From IMG/VR virus record IMGVR_UViG_3300013103_000035, positions 1 through 31,489 of that record: a DNA stretch of 31,489 nucleotides; one strand, 5' to 3'. This DNA comes from a virus. The notes beneath the pieces are model-generated. The model had not been told where the DNA came from. It searched no databases and saw nothing but the letters and a program-made list of their open reading frames with translations. This document shows positions 1 through 10,873 of this stretch, in pieces; position 1 is the first letter of the stretch, and every line of letters starts with the position of its first letter. A program made the position numbers and the translations under genes.

Positions 1-40
1 AGTCAAGGATCCGGTACGACTGTACTAGATGTACATAAGA

Positions 41-120
41 TAATCTAGATCCGGTACCGGCTATACTAAACTAGCCGGCTAGACCGGTCAGATATAGCTA
101 GTTAATCTAGATCCGGTACC
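41..120. repeat. 18-bp exact direct repeat pair
   Basis: TAATCTAGATCCGGTACC occurs at 41-58 and again at 103-120, 62 bp apart and without mismatch. A shortened third copy, GATCCGGTAC, is at 8-17. The repeats contain the palindromes ATCTAGAT and GGTACC and flank the palindrome at 71-82. They could be iteron-like binding sites for a phage initiator or regulator; that role is inference. Confidence 0.75.
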
Positions 121-149
121 AGGCTAAGTCATGTCATCAGTAAGACAAT

Positions 150-180
150 ATCTCCACCTGTCATTTGAATTGGTCTCTCC
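150..180 (-). repeat. Left copy of the inverted element flanking the replication block
   Basis: Read on the minus strand this 31-bp stretch begins GGAGAGACCAAT, continues CAAATGACAG and ends GTGGAGAT. It matches 3952-3983 on the plus strand with only a few differences and one single-base length difference. The two copies lie outside both ends of the minus-strand gene block and point outward. The element is not itself palindromic. It could be a promoter for a phage polymerase, a binding site or a recombination site. Confidence 0.7.
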
Positions 181-236
181 AAGAGTACATCTAGTCTACT
201 TGGTACACTAGACTATTAGACCATTTGTCCTCCTGT

Positions 237-258
237 TCGTACATGCACACATGTACGA
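237..258 (-). terminator. Perfect 9-bp hairpin downstream of the leftward operon
   Basis: TCGTACATG (237-245) and CATGTACGA (250-258) pair perfectly around a 4-base loop, about 25 bp beyond the stop codon of the last leftward gene. The position fits a transcription terminator for the leftward operon. No T-run follows in that direction and the stem is only moderately GC-rich, so intrinsic termination is doubtful. It may instead be a binding site or processing hairpin. Confidence 0.3.
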
Positions 259-283
259 GAACCAAACCCATCTACCCATCCGC

Positions 284-454
284 CTAGCTGCCCAGTAGCC
301 AGATGAGGACGTTGAGCAATATGATCACCAGCAAAAACAGCGCCATACTGTAGAATACGAGGCGGAAAATGACCACTGCTAGACCTCTCAGGAGAGGGAG
401 GATGGAGGAGTCGGGGTAGTAACCGCGGTTATTGCTGTTGTCATTGTTTTTCAT
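284..454 (-). CDS. Small single-pass membrane protein (56 aa)
   Basis: The product is a short protein with a polar, Asn-rich N-terminus followed by a hydrophobic stretch over about residues 29-53, rich in Leu, Val and Ile and ending just before the C-terminus. It should insert in the host membrane. I chose the ATG at 454, which has GGAGG 12 bases upstream and lies 7 bp after the preceding stop. A TTG at 481 would add nine residues and overlap that gene. It is the last gene of the leftward operon. Small phage membrane proteins can be holins or superinfection-exclusion proteins, but nothing here selects a function. Confidence 0.6.
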   Translation of the reverse strand: MKNNDNSNNRGYYPDSSILPLLRGLAVVIFRLVFYSMALFLLVIILLNVLIWLLGS

Positions 455-461
455 CTTTAGT

Positions 462-737
462 CTAGTCCTCCGTAGTTTCAAATGGCAAGATGGTCATCAA
501 AGCATCACGAAGGAAGTCGTGCAGAGCGTTGCAGAGGTAGTCGACTACCTCGAAGTCTACCTTTGCGGGGTCGATGCCAAACGATTCTAACAGGTTGTGC
601 GCTGCTTCAAGCTCGACGTCTTCCAGCGTTCTCCCACGGGCCGCCTTATCAAGGTCGAGTCGCACGCCATTTTTCTCGATGACCCCGCCGGCCGTGTATT
701 CGACCGACGATGCTGTTAACTTGGGCTTCTCTCCCAT
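462..737 (-). CDS. Hypothetical protein (91 aa)
   Basis: I do not recognise this protein. It starts MGEKPKLTASSVEY, is acidic, and its second half (about residues 35-85) looks mainly helical. The ATG at 737 is preceded on the minus strand by GAGGAG at good spacing, so the start is well supported. It lies downstream of the primase gene in the leftward operon, separated from it by about 60 bp that contain a fourfold heptamer repeat. A role as a small replication or host-takeover accessory is possible only by position. Confidence 0.65.
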   Translation of the reverse strand: MGEKPKLTASSVEYTAGGVIEKNGVRLDLDKAARGRTLEDVELEAAHNLLESFGIDPAKVDFEVVDYLCNALHDFLRDALMTILPFETTED

Positions 738-757
738 TTTCTATCTTCTCCTCTCTC

Positions 758-785
758 GTTACAGGTTACAGGTTACAGGTTACAG
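758..785. repeat. GTTACAG heptamer repeated four times
   Basis: Four exact tandem copies of GTTACAG fill the gap between the primase stop and the Shine-Dalgarno sequence of the 91-aa gene. In the leftward transcript they fall in the intergenic leader. A related heptamer array, ATAGGTT three times, occurs at 4053-4073 in the control region; as rotated units the two differ by one base (CAGGTTA and TAGGTTA). Confidence 0.9.
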
Positions 786-799
786 AATGGATACCACGT

Positions 800-1738
800 C
801 TACAGGATGGAACGGATAGCGCTGTCCAGTACACGAACGAGCGCTTCCACTCCCTCCTCCTTCAATATGTCGTTAACGTCTTTATACTTCGTGTCCAATT
901 TTAGAATCGCCACACGAACGTTATCCCTATTAAGCGATTTCCACAGCTTCCTTGCTCCCTCCATTCCCGCTCTATCGTTATCGAAGACAATGTAGATAAT
1001 CTCATCCTTTAGCCAAGGCAGCTCTCTATTACACGTCCCACCAGTAGCAATCGGGAACGGCTTATCGCCGAGGGATAGCTCAGCTGCCTGGAACAGGGTG
1101 ATTGCATCTATTGGGCTCTCACAGACAAATAGGAATGGACTTGGAGGTGGTGGGTAAACGGGAAAGTATGCGCTCCCTTTCCTCGGCCCTCTAGTGTAGA
1201 CGCGCGCACCAGGAGCAATGGGCTTATACTCTAAGCTCTGGACATCTCCCTTCCCATCTCGGAATGGGAATACGATGTGATTTCCCTCTTTATCCTGCCG
1301 ATATTCTACAGTATCGGAGATAATCGGATCAATTTTTCTCTCTTTCACCAGATATTGACGAGCTACGGTTGCATCGCCTTGCCTTAACTCCTCCCAGAGT
1401 TTCCGAACCGCTACTGTTCTGCGCTTGCTTGTTACGTGTCGCACTGATGCTGATGACGGCGGCGGCGGCTTACCTTCTAGGAACGCAATAAGATCGTCAA
1501 TGTTATCGATGCCCTCTCGCCGCATTATGTAGCTCACGACACTTTCAGCATATGCGCAGTTATTCCGCCTGTTGCAAACTATCATTCGGAGTGGTTTCTT
1601 ACCGAATGCGCGACGAAGTCTGCATTGCGGGCAGATCATTTCGTAATAGGTTCCTTTATCCTGAGGCTCCAACTCTCCGATGAGGTATCTTGGAGGTAAC
1701 CTTTCAATAATGCGCGATAGCTCTTTATACCGTGTCAT
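800..1738 (-). CDS. DnaG-type primase with zinc finger and TOPRIM domain
   Basis: This is a 312-aa primase that would make RNA primers at the phage replication fork. A zinc-binding motif is visible near the N-terminus with Cys36, Cys39, Cys55 and Cys61. A TOPRIM domain follows from about residue 200, with the catalytic Glu207 in CESPIDAITL and the DxD pair Asp253/Asp255 in VFDNDRAG. DVNDIL (287-292) matches the conserved segment after TOPRIM. The protein is about half the length of cellular DnaG and lacks its C-terminal helicase-binding domain, as in many phage primases. It lies directly downstream of the helicase gene, 18 bp away, so the two are probably co-transcribed and work together. The ATG at 1738 sits in a short tandem repeat that includes a weak AGAAG ribosome site. 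Confidence 0.9.
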   Translation of the reverse strand: MTRYKELSRIIERLPPRYLIGELEPQDKGTYYEMICPQCRLRRAFGKKPLRMIVCNRRNNCAYAESVVSYIMRREGIDNIDDLIAFLEGKPPPPSSASVRHVTSKRRTVAVRKLWEELRQGDATVARQYLVKERKIDPIISDTVEYRQDKEGNHIVFPFRDGKGDVQSLEYKPIAPGARVYTRGPRKGSAYFPVYPPPPSPFLFVCESPIDAITLFQAAELSLGDKPFPIATGGTCNRELPWLKDEIIYIVFDNDRAGMEGARKLWKSLNRDNVRVAILKLDTKYKDVNDILKEEGVEALVRVLDSAIRSIL

Positions 1739-1769
1739 ATTACTTCTATATTACTTCTATATTGCTTCG
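1737..1769. repeat. 11-bp tandem repeat at the helicase-primase junction
   Basis: ATATTACTTCT occurs twice in a row (1737-1747 and 1748-1758) followed by a degenerate third copy, ATATTGCTTCG. It covers the primase start codon, the gap and the end of the helicase gene. On the minus strand each unit supplies an AGAAG sequence, so the duplication may have created the ribosome-binding site of the primase. Confidence 0.75.
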
Positions 1770-2956
1770 TACATCGCCATGTGTTCTTTCTTGAACTTCA
1801 ATCGGACGACTTTCCCATCCCCACCGATGCGGCTACCAGCGATAAAAAGCCGCATTTCAGGGGGATTCCGCCTGCTTTCGTCTTTAGTCTGCGATAGGGT
1901 GAGGATCATATCTGCCAGCATCAGACTGCCTATGCCCCAGCGGCCGTCGCTGGCCGTTATCAGGCTCTTCTGAAGCCCCTCCTTGTTCGTGTGCTGGGCT
2001 GTCAGTATAGCCGTCTTATGCCTCATTCCAATCTGCCGCAGATCAGTTACGACTCGCTCTTGAACTACGACGGGGTTCTCGGACTGTTGAATCGGCTCTA
2101 CCTGTGTGAGCATGTCTACTATTGTGATCGAGGGGGCCAGCCCGTGGGCTCGTAGCGAGAGGAGAGTGGCTTCTAGCGCTAGAGCTGAGCTCGACCCCCT
2201 CATTCTTTCCTGGATCGCAATTTTGTTTTTTCGCTCTTCTAGCCATTTTAGAACCCTTTCTCTCCTCTCTTCATCGTGTGCTGCGAGCTCATCTATGGGT
2301 AATGCGGCAATTCGAGCATCTAGTCGTTTTTCAATTTCTGCTCTTTTTATTTCCATCGTATAATATAGCACGTCATGTCCTGACATTACCGCCGCTAGTG
2401 CGGCATTCAGCAGGAATGACGACTTGCCAATTTTAGGAGGGCCTATGAGAACATAGAGGTAGCCGACAATCCAACCTCCGTTCAAGTAGGATGTAAGAGT
2501 ATTCCACGGCGTCGTTATCCTTGGTGGTTCGGGCTCGGTCTCCTCCTTGAGGTGGTCGCCGTAGATTGCCCAATCTTCTCCTGACGCTTCCCCTATGGCC
2601 ATTATGCGGGTCAGCTGTTCGAGCACCTCGTTCCCGCCGCCGGAGGCCCACCTATCAGCTGCCCCGCTTAGAATATACGTCCTGCCTAAATATCGTCTAG
2701 CTGCCTCTGCCGTCTGCCGTATCAGATTAATACGACTTTCAGTCGACATAGGCTCAAGTATTGATAACTGCTTCCTACTGAGATTCCATTGCTGCAGTAT
2801 GGGGTCAGGGAGGAGATCGTGGCATTGTTTGTAGTGTTCTATCGCTGCCTTTACTATCTCCTGTTCTCGGAGGCCGAACATTGCCGCTGGAAGCCATTCC
2901 GCAACTTCAGACAGGAAACAGAGGTCTGTCAGTAATGCCACTACGGTCGGCGTCAT
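1757..2956 (-). CDS. DnaB-type replicative DNA helicase
   Basis: The product is a 399-aa RecA-fold helicase of the DnaB/phage replicative type. Walker A is GPPKIGKSS (172-180), the YYTMEI segment (198-203) corresponds to the DnaB motif around SLEM, Walker B is ITIVD (277-281), and Gln321 in LTAQHTNKEG fits the sensor motif. Near the C-terminus, GSRIGGDGKVVRLKF (374-388) resembles the DnaB arginine-finger and strand segment. Residues 1-140 form a helical N-terminal region comparable in position to the DnaB N-terminal domain. It would unwind DNA as a hexamer and load with the adjacent primase. The ATG at 2956 has a weak ribosome site. A 10-bp repeat around the start creates a second ATG 21 bp upstream that opens only a 6-codon frame. 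Confidence 0.9.
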   Translation of the reverse strand: MTPTVVALLTDLCFLSEVAEWLPAAMFGLREQEIVKAAIEHYKQCHDLLPDPILQQWNLSRKQLSILEPMSTESRINLIRQTAEAARRYLGRTYILSGAADRWASGGGNEVLEQLTRIMAIGEASGEDWAIYGDHLKEETEPEPPRITTPWNTLTSYLNGGWIVGYLYVLIGPPKIGKSSFLLNAALAAVMSGHDVLYYTMEIKRAEIEKRLDARIAALPIDELAAHDEERRERVLKWLEERKNKIAIQERMRGSSSALALEATLLSLRAHGLAPSITIVDMLTQVEPIQQSENPVVVQERVVTDLRQIGMRHKTAILTAQHTNKEGLQKSLITASDGRWGIGSLMLADMILTLSQTKDESRRNPPEMRLFIAGSRIGGDGKVVRLKFKKEHMAMYEAI

Positions 2957-2973
2957 CTATGCAACACTCAGCG

Positions 2974-3177
2974 TCATCTACTTGAACTTGGCCTTCCCGC
3001 AACAATATCGATTATGCCACATTCGTCAGTAGTAGTAGTAACTATGCATCTATCACTGCCACACTTTTTGCAGCCCTCAAATTTCTCCCCTGGCTTTATC
3101 GCGTCTCCATAACCACACTCTAAACAGACGTAATGCCGTTCGGTTACTGGCTTTCTTTTTCTCCACTTCAATACCAT
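2974..3177 (-). CDS. Small zinc-ribbon protein (67 aa)
   Basis: The protein shows a classical zinc-ribbon pattern: CLEC (Cys18, Cys21) and CKKC (Cys36, Cys39), plus Cys44 and Cys53. The N-terminus is basic (MVLKWRKRKP), consistent with nucleic-acid binding. The start codon abuts the stop codon of the upstream gene (TAAATG), which points to translational coupling. Its place ahead of helicase and primase suggests a replication or transcription accessory role, but the ribbon fold alone does not define a function. Confidence 0.75.
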   Translation of the reverse strand: MVLKWRKRKPVTERHYVCLECGYGDAIKPGEKFEGCKKCGSDRCIVTTTTDECGIIDIVAGRPSSSR

Positions 3178-3708
3178 TTAGTATATTCCCATTGTTCGTA
3201 GCATTTTTCGCAGCTCTTTCACCTTCTCCTCAGCCCAGTCAAATTTGGGAATCTCGGCATCGGGATTCCGAGCTGCAATAAGTAAGTCCCTGAGAATTGC
3301 TGGGGCTCCGATACTTCCCGCTATTAGCCCAATTATGGCGTCTGGTATTGCCCACTCGGAATAGGACTTCATCGCCTCTCGCAACTTTGCCATAGCGTCG
3401 TCCACCTTTTCCTCCAGAGGGCGTATCTCGTAGCCGTCCGCTATTTGATACTTCAGATATTCTTGTGCGAGAACAATGTGCTTCTTCAGCTTCGGTTGGA
3501 AGATTCTGCTATTGCCAATAATGCAGTCAACTGCTGCTGGAATATCCCCGATCTTCTTCGCTACCTTTACCGTCTGCGCTAACATCTTGTTCCTGAACGT
3601 TTCGGCCATCTCAGGATGCTCTGCAAGCCTCGATTCCATATAGTAGGTAACCTTGGCCTCCAAGTCTGCCTCTGCGTCTGCTTGCGTCTTTGTCTTTTTC
3701 TTTCCCAT
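3178..3708 (-). CDS. Hypothetical protein, first gene of the leftward operon (176 aa)
   Basis: I do not recognise this protein. It begins with a lysine-rich segment (MGKKKTKTQ), is strongly charged, and appears almost entirely helical, with one small apolar stretch around residues 123-147 (AIIGLIAGSIGAPAIL). It has no cysteine cluster or nucleotide-binding loop. The ATG at 3708 follows GAGGAG at ideal spacing, and a strong sigma-70-like promoter lies about 55 bp further upstream. As the promoter-proximal gene of the helicase-primase operon it could be a DNA-binding or helicase-loading factor; this is only positional inference. Confidence 0.75.
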   Translation of the reverse strand: MGKKKTKTQADAEADLEAKVTYYMESRLAEHPEMAETFRNKMLAQTVKVAKKIGDIPAAVDCIIGNSRIFQPKLKKHIVLAQEYLKYQIADGYEIRPLEEKVDDAMAKLREAMKSYSEWAIPDAIIGLIAGSIGAPAILRDLLIAARNPDAEIPKFDWAEEKVKELRKMLRTMGIY

Positions 3709-3761
3709 CTGGTTCTCCTCTACGAGAATTGTTATTTTATCTGCTCTCTACCTCTAACTTA

Positions 3762-3790
3762 ACTATAATCCCTCGTAGTGAATTTGTCAA
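3762..3790 (-). promoter_or_regulatory. Sigma-70-like promoter for the leftward operon
   Basis: On the minus strand TTGACA (3790-3785) is followed after exactly 17 bp by TATAGT (3767-3762), one mismatch from the sigma-70 consensus. Transcription would start near 3755 and reach the ATG at 3708 after about 47 bases that include the GAGGAG ribosome site. This is the best promoter in the window and should serve the whole 3708-284 gene block. Confidence 0.85.
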
Positions 3791-3800
3791 GTCTTTTCTC

Positions 3801-3872
3801 ACACCACCCTCGTTCCGGTCAGTCCGGCTGAAAGTAACACCACCCTCATTCCGGTTAGCCCGGCTAAAAGTG
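3801..3872. repeat. 36-bp tandem repeat with palindromic operator-like boxes
   Basis: Two adjacent 36-bp units (3801-3836, 3837-3872) match at 31 of 36 positions. Each contains a short dyad: TCAGTCCGGCTGA (3819-3831, one mismatch) and TTAGCCCGGCTAA (3855-3867, perfect). A third related palindrome, GGCTAAATAGCC, follows at 3890-3901, so the three centres are spaced 34-36 bp apart. They lie just upstream of the leftward -35 box and could be repressor or activator sites. Confidence 0.75.
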
Positions 3873-3889
3873 GCTCCATTTTTTTCTAA

Positions 3890-3901
3890 GGCTAAATAGC
3901 C
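3890..3901. promoter_or_regulatory. Palindrome GGCTAAATAGCC
   Basis: This perfect 5-bp dyad with a 2-base centre uses the same half-sites (GGCTA/TAGCC) as the boxes in the 36-bp repeat and as CTAGCCGGCTAG at 71-82. It is a plausible operator for the same DNA-binding protein; no such regulator gene lies in the window. Confidence 0.45.
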
Positions 3902-3922
3902 GACGACCCGTCAAAAATGGCA

Positions 3923-3951
3923 TCAAAAATCAGGTGATTTTGACATATAAT
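3923..3951 (+). promoter_or_regulatory. Possible rightward promoter with overlapping operator
   Basis: A perfect TATAAT lies at 3946-3951, directly after a TTGACA-like string (3940-3945) that is too close to serve as its -35 box. No good -35 is found 16-18 bp upstream. An imperfect dyad with half-sites TCAAAA and TTTTGA spans 3923-3943 and would overlap the promoter. The arrangement fits an activator- or repressor-controlled promoter for the terminase/virion operon. Confidence 0.4.
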
Positions 3952-3983
3952 GGAGAGACCAATAACAAATGACAGATGGAGAT
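3952..3983 (+). repeat. Right copy of the inverted element flanking the replication block
   Basis: This copy starts GGAGAGACCAAT immediately after the TATAAT box and continues through CAAATGACAG to GATGGAGAT. It matches the minus strand of 150-180 over 31-32 bp. Here it would form the very start of the rightward transcript or be a binding site just downstream of the promoter. The surrounding bases of the two copies are unrelated, so the shared block is specific. Confidence 0.7.
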
Positions 3984-4012
3984 GTGAAATTTTGTGGCCC
4001 TATAGTGAAGCG

Positions 4013-4055
4013 TATGGATCAAATGTCTATAGAGCGAACCATAGAATGATCCATA
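4013..4055 (+). other. Long-loop hairpin in the virion operon leader
   Basis: TATGGATCA (4013-4021) pairs with TGATCCATA (4047-4055). Inside the loop, CTAT (4027-4030) can pair with ATAG (4041-4044). There is no downstream T-run, so it is not an intrinsic terminator. It could be an mRNA leader structure or a protein site. Confidence 0.4.
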
Positions 4056-4073
4056 GGTTATAGGTTATAGGTT
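4053..4073. repeat. ATAGGTT heptamer repeated three times
   Basis: Three exact tandem copies of ATAGGTT lie in the leader of the rightward operon. The rotated unit TAGGTTA differs by one base from CAGGTTA, the unit repeated at 758-785. Confidence 0.85.
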
Positions 4074-4120
4074 GTGCTGCGTTAAACACAGAAATGCAAA
4101 TTATCGTAGTTCAACTGCAA

Positions 4121-4200
4121 AGCCGAAAGAGCCAATTATTGTAGTCTGGCTTATACATAGAACCAAAAGAGCCACTTGTTATAGTTTGGCTTAAACATAG
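4121..4200 (+). repeat. 40-bp tandem repeat ending on the first virion start codon
   Basis: Two adjacent 40-bp units (4121-4160, 4161-4200) agree at 33 of 40 positions. Both contain AAAGAGCCA and TGGCTTA, which can form a small AGCCA/TGGCT stem, and end ACATAG. A partial, weaker copy (AATTATCGTAGTTC) precedes them about 35 bp upstream. The last base of the second unit is the G of the GTG start codon of the next gene, which lacks an obvious Shine-Dalgarno sequence. The repeats may bind a regulator in DNA or control translation in the mRNA. Confidence 0.7.
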
Positions 4201-4601
4201 TGAAACTAAAAAAGAAGGATATTATAGTTCAGGCTGCTGAGGAATTCGGCGACGATCCTGTCCGTATAGCCACCATAACAGGTGAGAGCAAAGACACAAC
4301 GCGGATGACACTCGCGCGGCTTAGGCTGGATGATGTGAAAGTCCCAGCGAGGATAGCGCAGGAGTTGGAAGATGTCCGCCAAAGGATTGTTGCCCTCTAT
4401 GAGGAGGCAGATGATCCCAACAAAACAAAAATCGTAAAGGTCAAGACGGACATCCTAAAGGTTCACCTCCAATTTCTAGCAACGTTGGAGCGGATGTCCG
4501 CTGGCCTGCCCCAAGTAAATATGGGGAAGGATAGCGCAAAGCTGCTAGCGTCCCGGACGACGAAAGTGGAAAAGATATACGGAACTCCACCGGCCAACTG
4601 A
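4200..4601 (+). CDS. Putative small terminase subunit (133 aa)
   Basis: The protein is small and mostly helical. The segment around residues 10-40 (IVQAAEEFGDDPVRIATITG onward) reads as a helix-turn-helix that could recognise the packaging site, and residues 45-100 could form the oligomerisation helices. Its stop overlaps the ATG of the large terminase gene by one base (TGATG), the usual arrangement for terminase subunits. It would bind phage DNA and present it to the large subunit. The GTG start has no clear ribosome site; no better in-frame start exists before residue 30. The assignment rests mainly on position and the HTH-like segment. Confidence 0.65.
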   Translation: MKLKKKDIIVQAAEEFGDDPVRIATITGESKDTTRMTLARLRLDDVKVPARIAQELEDVRQRIVALYEEADDPNKTKIVKVKTDILKVHLQFLATLERMSAGLPQVNMGKDSAKLLASRTTKVEKIYGTPPAN

Positions 4602-6301
4602 TGAGTGTAATAGCTGCACATCCCGACGGCGTATGTTTGAGTGAAGACGAGGAGCGCGACCTACTACGGTGTCAGCGCGATCCCGTGTTTTTCATTAACA
4701 ATAGGCTTTCACTCCAGACGGCGCGCCTTAACCTCGGTGAATCTCAGTTTACACCATTTCGCCTATGGCCGTTTCAGGAGAAGTATGTCAGGATAGCAAC
4801 AGGAGAAAGCGATAAGCCGGTAAAGATAATCATCAGGAAAACCCGCCAACTAGGAGCGACGTGGACGAGCTTGGCTATTATCCTTTACTATCTTCTATTC
4901 CATCCGGGTAGCGTCGCGGCGCTTTGCAGCCGTAAGGAAGAGCTAGCACTTCGACTAATGGATCGTTTGATCATCTTATACGACAGCCTGCGAATGTACC
5001 CGTGGCTGCGTATTCCCCGTAAGTTCCGAAGTGCTAATGTCCGTCGGAGATTGGTGTTGAAGAACGAGAGCGTTGCCCTGGCCTTAGCCACTACTAGCTC
5101 GACGGGAATTGGGGAAACTCCGACTATATTCTTCGCTGATGAGGCGGCGAGGAACGAGCTGTTCGGAGAGGTTCTAGGCGCCTTCCTGCCGAGCACGGCG
5201 CGTTGGGGGCGCGTGCTGATCGTCAGTTGCTCCCGCTGTTCGAGGAAGCACGCATACGCGCGATTATGGGATGATGCAGTGGCAGGCAGAAATGAGTTTA
5301 TCCCACTCGAATGGTTTTGGTGGGAATATCCAGGGTATCACAATTCCGACGGAACCCCTAATGCGAGAGGGTTAGAATGGCTTGAGACTATGCGCCGCGA
5401 GCTGCCCACAGTAGAATTTCAAACGGAGATTCTTCACAATTGGATTGGAGCCGAATATCCGTTCTATGATGTTGAGGCACTCAGAACTAGGCTGGATGAG
5501 CTGCGTGAACTCGGCACCGTTGAAATAGATCGGAAGTATGGCGGGCACCTTAAGGTGTTCTCAAAGCCAAGCCCCGGCCACCGCTACGTTATAGGCGTCG
5601 ATAGCAGCATGGGGATTGGAAAGGATTGGCAAGCTGCTCAAGTAATCGATTGTAACACGTTAGAACAGGTTGCAGTTTATCACTCTCAGGAGAAGCCAGA
5701 CGTATATGCCAACGTTTTAGCTTCAATTCACCGCGAATACAATTTTGCCGATTTGGCGATAGAGAACCAGGGACCGGGCGGCATTGTTGCGACCACTCTC
5801 AATCAGCTTGGCCTCGGTCGTTTTATCTGTACTTTGGATCGTCCAATGATTGAGGTTCTGCGCCCTACGCGCGACCTTTATCCTGAGAATATCAATGAGA
5901 AGCAGCCGGGTATCGCAATGACGCGAAACCTGAAGCATAAGGCCCACCATTCTGTAGACGTAGCTTTACGCCGAGGCCAGCTGACTCTTTACGACGATGA
6001 GACAATCTTTGAATTGACTAGTATGACTGCAACGTCTAGTGGGATTATCGAAGCGGCAGGCGGCGGGCACGACGATTTGGCAGATGCGCTTGCCATAGGA
6101 TATTACGTAGTTACTGAGAAGTTTGGGTATGGAAGAGAATCGGTAGCGTTAACAGCGAGTAGCATTAACAATATCTACGATGCTATCGATGATACAAGCA
6201 CTGATGATATTCAATCTGTAAGGATTTACGAAGACAATGACATTCTGGAAATATCTCCCCTTTTGGAAGAGGAAAGAGCCGGACAAGGGTTCCTTACCTA
6301 A
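4601..6301 (+). CDS. terL: Large terminase subunit (packaging ATPase and nuclease)
   Basis: This 566-aa protein pumps DNA into the prohead and cuts it. The N-terminal ATPase has a Walker A-like loop in RKTRQLGATWTS (79-90) and Walker B TIFFADEAA (175-183) with the catalytic Glu181. The C-terminal RNase H-like nuclease shows Asp334 in YVIGVDSS, Glu388 in LAIENQG and the HDDLADAL cluster (490-497) with Asp491, Asp492 and Asp495. Length is normal for the family. It overlaps the small subunit by one base upstream and the portal gene by 65 bases downstream, so the three are translationally linked. Confidence 0.95.
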   Translation: MSVIAAHPDGVCLSEDEERDLLRCQRDPVFFINNRLSLQTARLNLGESQFTPFRLWPFQEKYVRIATGESDKPVKIIIRKTRQLGATWTSLAIILYYLLFHPGSVAALCSRKEELALRLMDRLIILYDSLRMYPWLRIPRKFRSANVRRRLVLKNESVALALATTSSTGIGETPTIFFADEAARNELFGEVLGAFLPSTARWGRVLIVSCSRCSRKHAYARLWDDAVAGRNEFIPLEWFWWEYPGYHNSDGTPNARGLEWLETMRRELPTVEFQTEILHNWIGAEYPFYDVEALRTRLDELRELGTVEIDRKYGGHLKVFSKPSPGHRYVIGVDSSMGIGKDWQAAQVIDCNTLEQVAVYHSQEKPDVYANVLASIHREYNFADLAIENQGPGGIVATTLNQLGLGRFICTLDRPMIEVLRPTRDLYPENINEKQPGIAMTRNLKHKAHHSVDVALRRGQLTLYDDETIFELTSMTATSSGIIEAAGGGHDDLADALAIGYYVVTEKFGYGRESVALTASSINNIYDAIDDTSTDDIQSVRIYEDNDILEISPLLEEERAGQGFLT

Positions 6302-7598
6302 GAAAGCCTATATCTACGCCGAGAACGAGATAGAGCGCTTTCTGTCTGAAGAGGTCTTTGAAAATCCTGATGACCTCGTGAGACGATATGGCGATTACTC
6401 TGTTTACCAGGAGATGGTGAAGGATAGTGTTGTGGATGCCGCCGTGTCTCGCTTAGTTCTGACGGCCGTTCCTAAGAGGTGGCGCGTAACGACACCGGAC
6501 GGAAAACAGAACAGAGTTACCCGATTCTGTGAGGATGCTCTCTCGGATATGGAGAGGTCTCTTGCAGATGCCGCCCGTGAGCTGGTTTTCTCTGCTGTTG
6601 TCTGTGGTGTGGGGTTTGCCGAAATAGGGATAGCACCACCCCTACGGGTGCTCGATTTGAAAGTTCTCGACCCAAAGAACGTTCGCTACGAACGGGATAA
6701 ATATGGGGTTGTTACAAACCTACGGTTTAGAAATGCTGATGGCGAATGGACTCCTCTGAATCCTTACAAATTTTTAGTGATGGTAAGAAATAGAAGGTTC
6801 AATAACCTGTACGGAGTCAGCGATCTACGGTCAGCATATCTTCCTTATCGCGTTAAGGGCATTCTTCAGAAGGCAAGGGCTCTATATTTGGAGAAGTTTG
6901 CCCATCCCCCGCTGTTTGCCTATTTGCCTCCATCAATGAAGGCACAATCCAGCGAGGCTGGGCGAATTAGAACACTCCTTGAGAATCTACGAAAGCGACA
7001 AGTGCTAACTATTCCTGCTGATGTCAGGATAGGATTTATGGAGGTGGTGCGTGCAGAGCGAAACGAATTTGAGAGCGCAATGAACGCGTTGTCGAATGAA
7101 ATTAGAACTGGAATTCTTACTGCCTTTCTAATGGCAGGGGAGGGCCTGTCTAGCACTAGCCGATCGGCAGCAGAACTCCATGAGGCTTCCGCGATGGTTA
7201 AAATCCTCACCGTCCGAGAGCAGATTGAGGATGTGCTATCGAGGCAGCTTCTATATCGCATAGCTGCTTATCGGTACGGGAAGCGAGAGGCCGAATCTGC
7301 CCGGCCCACCTTGGAATTCATTGCCCGGCCCACTGCTAATCCTCAAGAGCTAGCTAATACTATTTTAGCTCTGAAGGAGGCTGGCTATAAGACCGACGTT
7401 AAGTATCTATCCGATCGGTTTGGAATGCCATTGGAGGACGATGAGATTGATACGGGTGCGGACGTTGGCACCTACGATCCGAAACAACAGATAAAGGACA
7501 GACGCCGTTACATCCCCTGGTCTCAGAGAAAGGGAAGCCAAGAGGTAACTAGCGGCAAGGGGAAAGAGGCGCCAGTGGCTGAGGTCGTGCCCGTCTAG
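6237..7598 (+). CDS. Portal protein, Mu gp29-like (DUF935 type)
   Basis: The 453-aa protein has the features of the Mu gp29 portal family: an N-terminal region that opens WKYLPFWKRK, the conserved VSRLVLTAVPKRWRV segment (71-85), a core containing VLDPKNVRYERDKYG, and the late helices ending with the IAAYRYGKR stretch before a polar tail. It would form the dodecameric ring at one capsid vertex through which DNA passes. Its start lies inside the terminase gene (65-bp overlap), with AAGGA about 12 bases upstream. The Mu gp30 (MuF) minor head gene that usually follows is absent; the protease gene comes next. Confidence 0.85.
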   Translation: MTFWKYLPFWKRKEPDKGSLPKKAYIYAENEIERFLSEEVFENPDDLVRRYGDYSVYQEMVKDSVVDAAVSRLVLTAVPKRWRVTTPDGKQNRVTRFCEDALSDMERSLADAARELVFSAVVCGVGFAEIGIAPPLRVLDLKVLDPKNVRYERDKYGVVTNLRFRNADGEWTPLNPYKFLVMVRNRRFNNLYGVSDLRSAYLPYRVKGILQKARALYLEKFAHPPLFAYLPPSMKAQSSEAGRIRTLLENLRKRQVLTIPADVRIGFMEVVRAERNEFESAMNALSNEIRTGILTAFLMAGEGLSSTSRSAAELHEASAMVKILTVREQIEDVLSRQLLYRIAAYRYGKREAESARPTLEFIARPTANPQELANTILALKEAGYKTDVKYLSDRFGMPLEDDEIDTGADVGTYDPKQQIKDRRRYIPWSQRKGSQEVTSGKGKEAPVAEVVPV

Positions 7599-7620
7599 GC
7601 CATGAGGTAGTGAGGAACCG

Positions 7621-9429
7621 ATGCCGGAGGAAACGAAAGATTACATACGGTTGCCTACTAAGCAGTCTCGTGGGTTCAAGCCGGTTAGATATAGATATGG
7701 AAAGCCATTTTCTAATGGTGTGCGACCGCTATTTGGTATCAATAGTGAGGGTAAGACAGTGATTGTTACGTTGCTATTTCCGAAGGATAAGTTCGATTGG
7801 GAATCTGCAAGAAAGTGGAAGGAGAGCCATAACTTCGCAGAAGCCGATATCGAACTTGTCGATTCAATAAATAGCGTCCAAATCCTCGAGCTTGACCATG
7901 CATCAGAGAGGTTTTCGGATAAGCCGTGGGATGCAAATGCCGTCCGTTGGAAATTAGGTAAGGACGGCTTCCTATGGGCAAAAGGCGATAATCGTTCCGA
8001 CTGGAAATTCCCCTACAAGTTTCTGGATGGGACAATATCGACAAAAGCCGTTGCAGCTGCAAAGAGGATGTTACTGGGCGCGCGGTCGGGGAAGAATCTC
8101 GTTAATAAGTATCCCGGCGTACTGGAGCGCGTTAATGCTCTCTTGAAAGCAATTGCAAAATGGCGTGCTTCTCAGAATCACAGCGAGCGCATTGCATCTC
8201 CGCTGGAATACGCCGAATTCAAGGGAGAGAAAATCTTCCGAGAGGGAATCTTCACGTCCGCTGAGGGTATCACGCGCGAATGGACATCAGAGGATATCGA
8301 CACCATTATAGCCAATCATGTCGCGTTTGGGATTGAACCTAATGTTACTACGGGAGATCATTCGCGAACTGGTAAAGGCAAAGTCGGTATTGCTACTAAT
8401 CTGCGGAGAGACCCGGATGATCCGAGATGGATCGTAGCGGACATCTACGTTCCCGACGAGTACGCTAAATATGTCGGATGGGAGAAAGCGTTTTCTCGTC
8501 CGAGCGTTTCAATAGTCCCCGACCTGACAATCGATGGGGTCAGCTACGGCCCTGCAATCAAGTCGGTTACGCTATTGGGCGATCTCTGCCCGGCTATACC
8601 AGACATCCCACATATCGGGAAGGAAATAAGCTGGAATCCGCCTGAACAGAGGCCTGAGCTCCAAGCTTATTTCTCTGAGGACAAAAACAAAGACAAGAAC
8701 TATAGTATGTCAGTTTCAGCATTTAACGTAGAGGACAAGAGGATGCCATCTAACACGGAAACAAACAAGTCAACTTCTGCTACGACAACCGAAGCGGCTA
8801 AGGCCAACCATGCAAGTGGAGACGAGAGTACTCCTGCCGTGGAGAAGCTTGAGCAACAGTTTGCTGAGGCAGTGCGTCAGAATGAGCAGCTCCAAGCGCT
8901 ATTAAAGAAGCGCGAGGAGGAGATGAAGAAGCGGGATGCGCTGCTGATTCAGAATGCTCGCAAACTGGCGGAGATTGAAGTTGATACGTTCTGTGAAGAC
9001 ATGATAAACAAGGGCGTCGCTACGTGTATCGTTGAGGCAGCCCGCCCAATCCTTCTCGCTACCTCCTATCCTGACACTAATACCGTCAACTTTAGTGAGA
9101 AGGAGAAGGGCCTGTCTTTTGCAGATGCGTTCAAGAAATTCATCTCCGTTCTGATTGAGAACAAGGCCAATGCTTTCGTTGATTTCAGCGAGCAGGCCGA
9201 TCAGAAGCAAGCGGGTTCCCCCGGTGAGGAGGCCGGCGCTGCTGCCGATTCTGGTGGAGCTAAGGCTTCCGCAGCCGACATAGAGGTAAGTCTCTCTGGG
9301 GCTGATAGAGAGCTGCTGGATGGTATTTCCGCAGCTACGGCGGGGGACGGTATTAAGATCACCGAAGAGGATATAAAGGCTTTGCAGAGCGGGAAGCTCG
9401 AAGCCTCGTTTGTGTCTAGCGTAAAATAG
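7621..9429 (+). CDS. Head maturation protease fused to scaffold, Mu I/Z-like
   Basis: The 602-aa protein reads as three parts. Residues 1-185 resemble a domain often found before phage head proteases (FPKDKFDWESARKWKESH, then a segment ending KAVAAAKRMLLGARSG). Residues about 196-350 look like the Mu I-type protease, with GDHSRTGKG (His in GDHS) and FSRPSVSI as likely catalytic His and Ser. Residues from about 375 on are a low-complexity linker, a coiled coil (VEKLEQQFAEAVRQNEQLQA) and an acidic Ala/Ser tail, as in scaffolds. It would shape the prohead and then cleave itself. The ATG at 7621 follows GAGG. An internal in-frame ATG at 8743 has its own ribosome site and could yield scaffold alone. 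Confidence 0.85.
   Translation: MPEETKDYIRLPTKQSRGFKPVRYRYGKPFSNGVRPLFGINSEGKTVIVTLLFPKDKFDWESARKWKESHNFAEADIELVDSINSVQILELDHASERFSDKPWDANAVRWKLGKDGFLWAKGDNRSDWKFPYKFLDGTISTKAVAAAKRMLLGARSGKNLVNKYPGVLERVNALLKAIAKWRASQNHSERIASPLEYAEFKGEKIFREGIFTSAEGITREWTSEDIDTIIANHVAFGIEPNVTTGDHSRTGKGKVGIATNLRRDPDDPRWIVADIYVPDEYAKYVGWEKAFSRPSVSIVPDLTIDGVSYGPAIKSVTLLGDLCPAIPDIPHIGKEISWNPPEQRPELQAYFSEDKNKDKNYSMSVSAFNVEDKRMPSNTETNKSTSATTTEAAKANHASGDESTPAVEKLEQQFAEAVRQNEQLQALLKKREEEMKKRDALLIQNARKLAEIEVDTFCEDMINKGVATCIVEAARPILLATSYPDTNTVNFSEKEKGLSFADAFKKFISVLIENKANAFVDFSEQADQKQAGSPGEEAGAAADSGGAKASAADIEVSLSGADRELLDGISAATAGDGIKITEEDIKALQSGKLEASFVSSVK
8743..9429 (+). CDS. Possible nested scaffold protein from an internal start
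   Basis: The in-frame ATG at 8743 (residue 375 of the fusion) is preceded by GAGG eight bases upstream, and a second AGAGG abuts it. Translation from here would give about 228 aa: the Ser/Thr/Asn-rich linker, the coiled coil and the acidic tail, without the protease. Nested scaffolds of this kind are known from lambda (Nu3 within C) and Mu (Z within I). Whether this start is used is inference from the ribosome site and the domain boundary. Confidence 0.45.
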   Translation: MPSNTETNKSTSATTTEAAKANHASGDESTPAVEKLEQQFAEAVRQNEQLQALLKKREEEMKKRDALLIQNARKLAEIEVDTFCEDMINKGVATCIVEAARPILLATSYPDTNTVNFSEKEKGLSFADAFKKFISVLIENKANAFVDFSEQADQKQAGSPGEEAGAAADSGGAKASAADIEVSLSGADRELLDGISAATAGDGIKITEEDIKALQSGKLEASFVSSVK

Positions 9430-9441
9430 TAGGAGGAACAA

Positions 9442-9915
9442 ATGCCTGATCCTGGAGAGCTCTTTGGCGCTGCGAATAGGACGTATTCGAGCCGAAGAAA
9501 GACTGGAGAGGTAATCACGTGTTCTGTTGCAGATGGGGAGACCATCTATAAGGGCACGCTGGTTTGTTATGAGTACGACGGTGGCCTCACCGGCTACGTC
9601 GTCCCGGCTTCTGACACCGCGGATTACAAGTTCGCCGGTGTCGCAATGGAGACCTGCGAAAACACCAGTTCCGCTCTCCATCGTCGAGATGAGATAAACC
9701 TGTGGCAAACGGGTGATTTTCTGTTCGAGATGGATGTTGGCCCGGACACTGGTGGCGCTTGGGCCGCCCTGTTGAAGACGGCGGTCTATATTGTGAATGA
9801 CAAGACTGTCGATGTTGTTGCAAACACCACGAATGATATTCTGTGTGGTTACATAACGAAAGTGGAAGATGAGAACCACGTGTGGGTTCGCATCGATTCC
9901 GCTACGTATAAATAA
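9442..9915 (+). CDS. Capsid decoration-like protein (157 aa)
   Basis: A small beta-rich protein encoded between scaffold and major capsid, the usual position of a head decoration protein. The pattern of GETIYKGTLVCYEYDGG, a VVPASDTADYKFAGVAM segment and a GDFLFEMDVG strand resembles the DUF2190-like decoration fold. It would bind the capsid shell after expansion and stabilise it. The ATG follows AGGAGG at ideal spacing. No catalytic motif is seen. The family assignment is by overall look and position. Confidence 0.6.
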   Translation: MPDPGELFGAANRTYSSRRKTGEVITCSVADGETIYKGTLVCYEYDGGLTGYVVPASDTADYKFAGVAMETCENTSSALHRRDEINLWQTGDFLFEMDVGPDTGGAWAALLKTAVYIVNDKTVDVVANTTNDILCGYITKVEDENHVWVRIDSATYK

Positions 9916-9937
9916 GAAGGGAAGCTAGGAGGCGAAT

Positions 9938-10873
9938 ATGGGTTTTGGAACCGGCGATCTGCCGAAACTCACGGCCCCGGCACTGAACACCCTATTTATC
10001 AAGACGTTCAACAAGTTCGCTGATGCTACTAAGTGGAAGCAGTATTGTCAGGTTCTCCCGTCAAGTAGTCAGTATGAGGACTACGCCTGGTTTGCAGAGC
10101 AGATCGTAGTGCGGGAGTTCAAGGATTCCAGACAGCTCAGCGATTTTGGGGAGCTGAGATTCCAAGCCGAGAACATTAAGTTTGAGGCTACGATCCAGAT
10201 TCCTCAAGACTTGATTGACGATGCTAAGTATGGTGTCATAGGTCAGTTGATCCGCCAGCTTGCTATCAAGATGGCGCGCGATCCTGACAAGAGGGCCACT
10301 AATCTTCTGAAGGCCGCGCATACCACTACTTGCTACGACGGGACTTACTGGTGCGGCACTGCCCACCCCGGCGTAGATGGCGGCCCAACCATCTCCAACT
10401 ATACTACGTCCGGCTTTGGCCCCGATGCGCTGAAGGAGGCGCTGAAGAGGCTTACGACTTGGCCGGATAGGACCGGTGAGATTTACGACGTTAACCCTAA
10501 CCTGTTGATCGTTGGCCGCGACGACGAGTTCACTGCTAGGCGGTGGCTTTCGTCCCAGACTATCGTTACTGGGAACACCGCGGAGATTCCATCGCAAAAC
10601 ATTTACTCCCAGCTTGGGATAAAGCTGCTGGTTCTCAACCAGCTGACAGCTGGGCAGTGGTTCCTGATGGATACCGGGTTTGGGATTATGCCGATTATCT
10701 TCCAACAGCGCCAGAAGATAACAACGGGATTCGTCCCCGGCCCCGGTCGAGCGGATGAGGGTGGCGACGCTTTCACGTTCATGCACGACTGCAAGATTTT
10801 TGGCGCTAAGTATCGTGGCGTTATGGTTCCCACTCACCCATACCTAATCTACATGGGCGAGCCGGGGGACTAA
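9938..10873 (+). CDS. Major capsid protein, Mu gpT-like
   Basis: At 311 aa this matches the length of the Mu T major head subunit. Family-like features include an N-terminal segment with LNTLFIKTFNKF, the DLIDDAKYGVIGQLIRQLA helix, a CYDGTYWCGTAHPGVDGG segment (Mu-type proteins have a similar FFDTDHP stretch here) and a C-terminal segment GAKYRGVMVPTHPYLIYMG. It assembles the icosahedral shell on the scaffold encoded just upstream. Strong GGAGG-type ribosome site (AGGAGGCGAAT), as expected for the most abundant virion protein. Confidence 0.85.
   Translation: MGFGTGDLPKLTAPALNTLFIKTFNKFADATKWKQYCQVLPSSSQYEDYAWFAEQIVVREFKDSRQLSDFGELRFQAENIKFEATIQIPQDLIDDAKYGVIGQLIRQLAIKMARDPDKRATNLLKAAHTTTCYDGTYWCGTAHPGVDGGPTISNYTTSGFGPDALKEALKRLTTWPDRTGEIYDVNPNLLIVGRDDEFTARRWLSSQTIVTGNTAEIPSQNIYSQLGIKLLVLNQLTAGQWFLMDTGFGIMPIIFQQRQKITTGFVPGPGRADEGGDAFTFMHDCKIFGAKYRGVMVPTHPYLIYMGEPGD

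Follow-up and report, generated by a model that had tools for sequence, protein, structure and literature searches.

Two outward-pointing copies of a 31-bp motif around the replication block of a phage from an uncultured bacterial lineage: a possible leader signal

Bacteriophage HK022 carries two similar non-palindromic sites, putL and putR, located downstream of PL and PR (in one case some 270 nt after the start site) and read in two opposite early transcripts; a put site spans about 70 nt with two stem-loops and suppresses termination with no need for added proteins (PMC9378689). Lambda-type nutL and nutR form an outward pair around a control block, and phage mEp021 has a multi-site nut system in which nutR2 lies downstream of a gene inside the operon (PMC11893012). 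Short asymmetric repeats have also been described as the 13-bp start-associated sequences (SAS) of Cluster K mycobacteriophages, present in 11-19 copies immediately upstream of gene starts and in some cases with an inverted repeat just upstream (PMC3203893), and as the Cluster A stoperators, multi-copy 13-bp repressor sites oriented with transcription (PMC4351075). Here we analysed a phage locus with two outward-pointing copies of a 31-bp motif, which most likely constitute a control signal for two outward transcripts.

The phage contig and its motif pair

The window, meaning the whole stretch of 31,489 bases that was analysed, is contig 17 of a 2.1-Mb bacterial assembly and represents an incomplete tailed-phage genome, for which neither a terminal overlap (circle) nor a linking contig was found via common ends. 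The host of the phage is an uncultured bacterial lineage, recognised as bacterial from the RNA polymerase alpha-subunit and L17 genes on contig 30, which were assigned by reading the sequences. The gene blocks surrounding the motif pair are:

284-3708, minus strand: leftward replication operon (small membrane-like protein, 91-aa, 67-aa and 176-aa proteins, primase, helicase)
800-1738, minus strand: Toprim primase, within the leftward replication operon
1757-2956, minus strand: DnaB-like helicase, within the leftward replication operon
4200-7598, plus strand: start of the rightward virion operon
4200-4601, plus strand: putative small terminase, named from position and small size only
4601-6301, plus strand: large terminase
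6237-7598, plus strand: portal

From 4200 onwards the rightward operon also codes for a protease, a Mu gpT-like capsid protein, and neck and tape-measure proteins. Its head module (4601-10873), of which no close relatives were found in IMG/VR, is mosaic, combining a large terminase nearest to those of T4-like cyanophages with the Mu gpT-like capsid protein. GTTACAG occurs four times in tandem at 758-785, between the primase and the 91-aa gene, and a related GTTATAG repeat lies past the replication block at 4057-4070.

The initial annotation had described an inverted 31-bp element at 150-180 (minus) and 3952-3983 (plus), and we recovered it with the same order, spacing and orientation and with the additional base in the right copy; one extra matching T lies 5' of the element in both places (181 and 3951), so that the copies read as follows:

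150-181, minus strand: left copy, TGGAGAGACCAATTCAAATGACAGGTGGAGAT (sequence, self-alignment, randomisation)
3951-3983, plus strand: right copy, TGGAGAGACCAATAACAAATGACAGATGGAGAT (sequence, self-alignment, randomisation)

Read along minus 181-150 and plus 3951-3983, both follow the pattern TGGAGAGACCAAT-(TC/AAC)-AAATGACAG-R-TGGAGAT, and their local alignment is identical in 30 of 33 columns, with one 1-base indel. Self-BLAST of the whole window matched the left with the right copy at E = 0.004, and their alignment score of 25 compares with a best score of 18 in 2,000 Markov-randomised pairs (Gumbel p ~2e-6, referring to the two intergenic regions 1-283 and 3709-4199). Chance is excluded as the source of this likeness. 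Since the flanks diverge fully, in line with their earlier description as unrelated, while the copies agree beyond chance, constraint on the motif alone is implied. Both copies lie in non-coding DNA, outside plausible genes, and point outward, as had been annotated, from a block that does encode the Toprim primase and the DnaB-like helicase, the right copy standing in front of the virion operon with its terminase, portal, protease and capsid genes. The 31-bp motif is non-palindromic, and TGGAGA recurs within it as a direct repeat at a distance of 25-26 bp. No stable fold was predicted for the motif alone, its two-sequence consensus fold carried no folding energy, and neither Rfam nor tRNA searches gave a match.

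A gapped-motif scan of the window, in which both real copies score 30/30 core matches, detected no third copy, the best unrelated site reaching 20/30 (shuffled maxima 19-22); three ways of searching the 2.1-Mb host assembly (MAG) likewise yielded none. The motif core was absent from 98 other related genomes and from IMG/VR. A search of 84,980 genomes gave a single match, which we attribute to chance because it lies within a coding gene of a Bacteroidetes contig and has a different spacing. Thus, of the two findings that the initial annotation had named as speaking against its reading, one, the lack of further copies ahead of operons in this genome, was indeed obtained. Close relatives of the phage were found neither by exact-peptide scans of IMG/VR (terminase, helicase, capsid, portal) nor by an exact-peptide terminase scan of the genome collection; class- and phylum-wide protein searches returned only pieces 21-41% identical, and self-comparison of the contigs carrying them, in regions without detailed annotation, revealed nothing plainly comparable to the motif pair.

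Surroundings of the copies and the case for a transcribed signal

Between the right copy and the first gene of the virion operon lie 216 bases. The left copy follows the final gene of the leftward replication operon after 103 bases, in that operon's sense direction; the one strong leftward promoter is some 3.6 kb upstream of this copy, and the contig end is reached 149 bases beyond it. Their surroundings contain:

1-149, minus strand: palindrome-rich non-coding DNA, fold z -2.1 as minus-strand RNA, with the contig ending inside it
190-212, minus strand: imperfect dyad TCTAGTGTAC-CAA-GTAGACTAGA, centred 21 bases upstream of the left copy
3762-3790, minus strand: predicted promoter of the leftward replication operon, TTGACA-N17-TATAGT (11/12)
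3801-3872, plus strand: tandem pair of 36-bp repeats carrying CCGG-N5-CCGG dyads, next to the leftward promoter on its upstream side
3926-3941, plus strand: perfect 7-bp dyad AAAATCA-GG-TGATTTT, centred ~18.5 bases 5' of the right copy
3946-3951, plus strand: TATAAT, candidate -10 box read in the sequence, adjoining the right copy
3984-4199, plus strand: predicted structured leader, from the right copy to the first rightward gene, fold z -2.3

The leftward promoter (3790-3762) had the top score of a promoter scan covering 20 kb, and the 36-bp repeats upstream of it, which are 86% identical, are possibly an operator, activator sites or origin iterons. The palindrome-rich stretch 1-283, possibly an origin or terminus, perhaps caused the assembly break; GATCCGGTAC occurs in it three times and CTAG eight times within 240 bases, and the left copy is enclosed by an inverted pair of 11 bp (24-34/185-195). 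On the other side, the leader 3' of the right copy holds two 38-bp hairpin repeats (4123-4200) and a partial third one (4096-4110); these repeats, each able to form an AGCCA/TGGCT-type hairpin, lie directly 5' of the first virion gene, whose start codon is GTG, with no clear ribosome site.

The proposal that the element is a promoter held up by half, with TATAAT directly upstream of the right copy and no convincing sigma-70 hexamers before the left one, where only TACTCT was seen and no -35-like hexamer. No good -35 was present at 16-18 bases from TATAAT (3946-3951), a site that the two-hexamer scan did not return. Moreover, since the sequence common to both copies sets in only downstream of the -10 position, promoter identity cannot explain the motif. 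A shared sigma-70 promoter at both copies is therefore not supported, and a phage promoter set, for sigma-70 or a phage polymerase, does not describe a locus with two copies only, TATAAT at one of them and nothing conserved upstream. We also considered the motif tail as a -35 (TGGAGA-N18-TATAGT, 3977-4006), and rejected it for want of a corresponding -10 at the left copy.

The outward sense of both copies, the lack of promoter identity and the similarly placed dyads together favour a transcribed leader signal: the two copies would be a cis-acting control signal that two outward transcripts carry in sense orientation, early in their untranslated leader, a reading to which we give a probability of about 40%. 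A leader element would also be the best fit among the options raised by the initial annotation. Each copy lies in the sense of its neighbouring operon and has a short dyad before it and fold-prone sequence after it, the downstream leaders folding better than shuffles (z -2.1 left, -2.3 right). That the dyads stand at nearly the same distance with unrelated arms fits a hairpin better than an operator, which is suggestive only; strict dyads are rare in the contig (centred 15-25 bases 5' of ~0.4% of plus-strand positions), a figure for a window picked after the data had been seen and to be set beside a left region that is palindrome-rich throughout. The one-base length difference in the middle of the motif is easier to accommodate in an RNA or a flexible site than in a recombination core. 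Against a leader signal, there are only two copies and no relatives were found, hence no covariation, and the left copy lies past the last gene and far from the leftward promoter; if TATAAT is a true -10, the transcript would start inside the motif. No antiterminator protein was recognisable, and the lack of a stable motif fold and of an Rfam match also tells against this reading.

By inference, the motif functions at the RNA level, transcription begins near 3958, and the leftward transcription unit runs on beyond the contig end. RNA polymerase leaving the replication/control block would transcribe the motif, which a factor, presumably of the phage or the host, or else the RNA itself, would recognise, and this recognition would set the fate of the downstream transcript through antitermination, stability or translation.

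Competing explanations

A possible but doubtful alternative is that the motif is a double-stranded DNA site, at both edges of the block, for a phage protein such as a late activator, an alternative sigma factor or its partner, a replication initiator or a packaging protein. A non-palindromic 31-bp sequence with a TGGAGA direct repeat would suit such a protein, as would the TATAAT adjoining the right copy, the dyads and 36-bp repeats resembling protein-binding DNA, and the nearby terminase genes. However, promoter hexamers are not common to both copies, known late-promoter or stoperator sets have more than two members, and no sigma factor, phage RNA polymerase or initiator was recognised in the window.

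The existence of exactly two copies, with none elsewhere in anything searched, is also what would be expected of an evolutionary residue, namely a functionless short inverted duplication that arose by template switching or when the replication block was captured and its edges copied. We regard this as unlikely, given that a neutral duplicate would decay evenly, whereas here the edges are sharp, with 30/33 identity inside and none outside, and that it would rarely land in both intergenic edges with the same outward sense.

In both copies GGAGAG is followed by ATG, which might be where ribosomes bind and begin two small leader peptides, MTGGDIVLLMT and MTDGDVKFCGPIVKRMDQMSIERTIE; this is improbable, as the 10-11 base spacing is longer than at the clear ribosome sites of this phage, conservation spans the untranslated part without a synonymous pattern, and the peptides diverge after residue 5. 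Least probable of all, and correspondingly disfavoured among the earlier suggestions, is that the copies are the ends of a replication cassette that recombines or transposes, as terminal inverted repeats or the borders of an invertible segment. The inverted arrangement around a single functional block would suit this, but the block contains no recognised recombinase or transposase gene, no target-site duplication flanks it, the copies are unequal in length mid-motif, and the motif contains no dyad.

Comparison with known phage signals

Should the pair be a leader signal, it would point to the way in which replication and virion transcription are connected in a phage of an uncultured bacterial lineage, and would offer a defined 31-base target for reporter work; for now, it adds a further example to the paired control sites of phages. 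We consider it very improbable that phages of this lineage have here a novel type of antitermination/leader RNA, protein-free or phage-specific, whose single-stranded 31-nt recognition sequence follows a variable hairpin in both outward transcripts.

Like the SAS, the motif is a short asymmetric repeat with an inverted repeat just upstream, but it has two copies far from gene starts, the right one 216 nt from the next gene (PMC3203893). It shares with the stoperators its asymmetry and its orientation with transcription, and differs from them in having two copies of 31 bp and no recognised repressor (PMC4351075). Unlike lambda nut, it shows no boxA-like octamer by eye and no boxB hairpin in the shared part; the N-like arginine-rich protein encoded near lambda nut has no recognised counterpart in the window of this incomplete phage genome, and the block enclosed consists of replication genes rather than an immunity region. 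Unlike the HK022 put sites, the copies share 31-33 nt that do not self-fold (PMC9378689); two 95-nt stretches around them fold differently, with a consensus folding term of ~0. The put sites lie in early transcripts downstream of divergent promoters; here the right copy stands beside TATAAT and the left one far downstream of the leftward promoter. What the pair has in common with these systems is two similar non-palindromic sites per genome, as in HK022 (PMC9378689), placed outward around a block, as in the lambda-type nutL/nutR, and with the left copy situated past a gene, as nutR2 of mEp021 is (PMC11893012); by analogy it would resemble the lambda nut and HK022 put pairs in geometry only.
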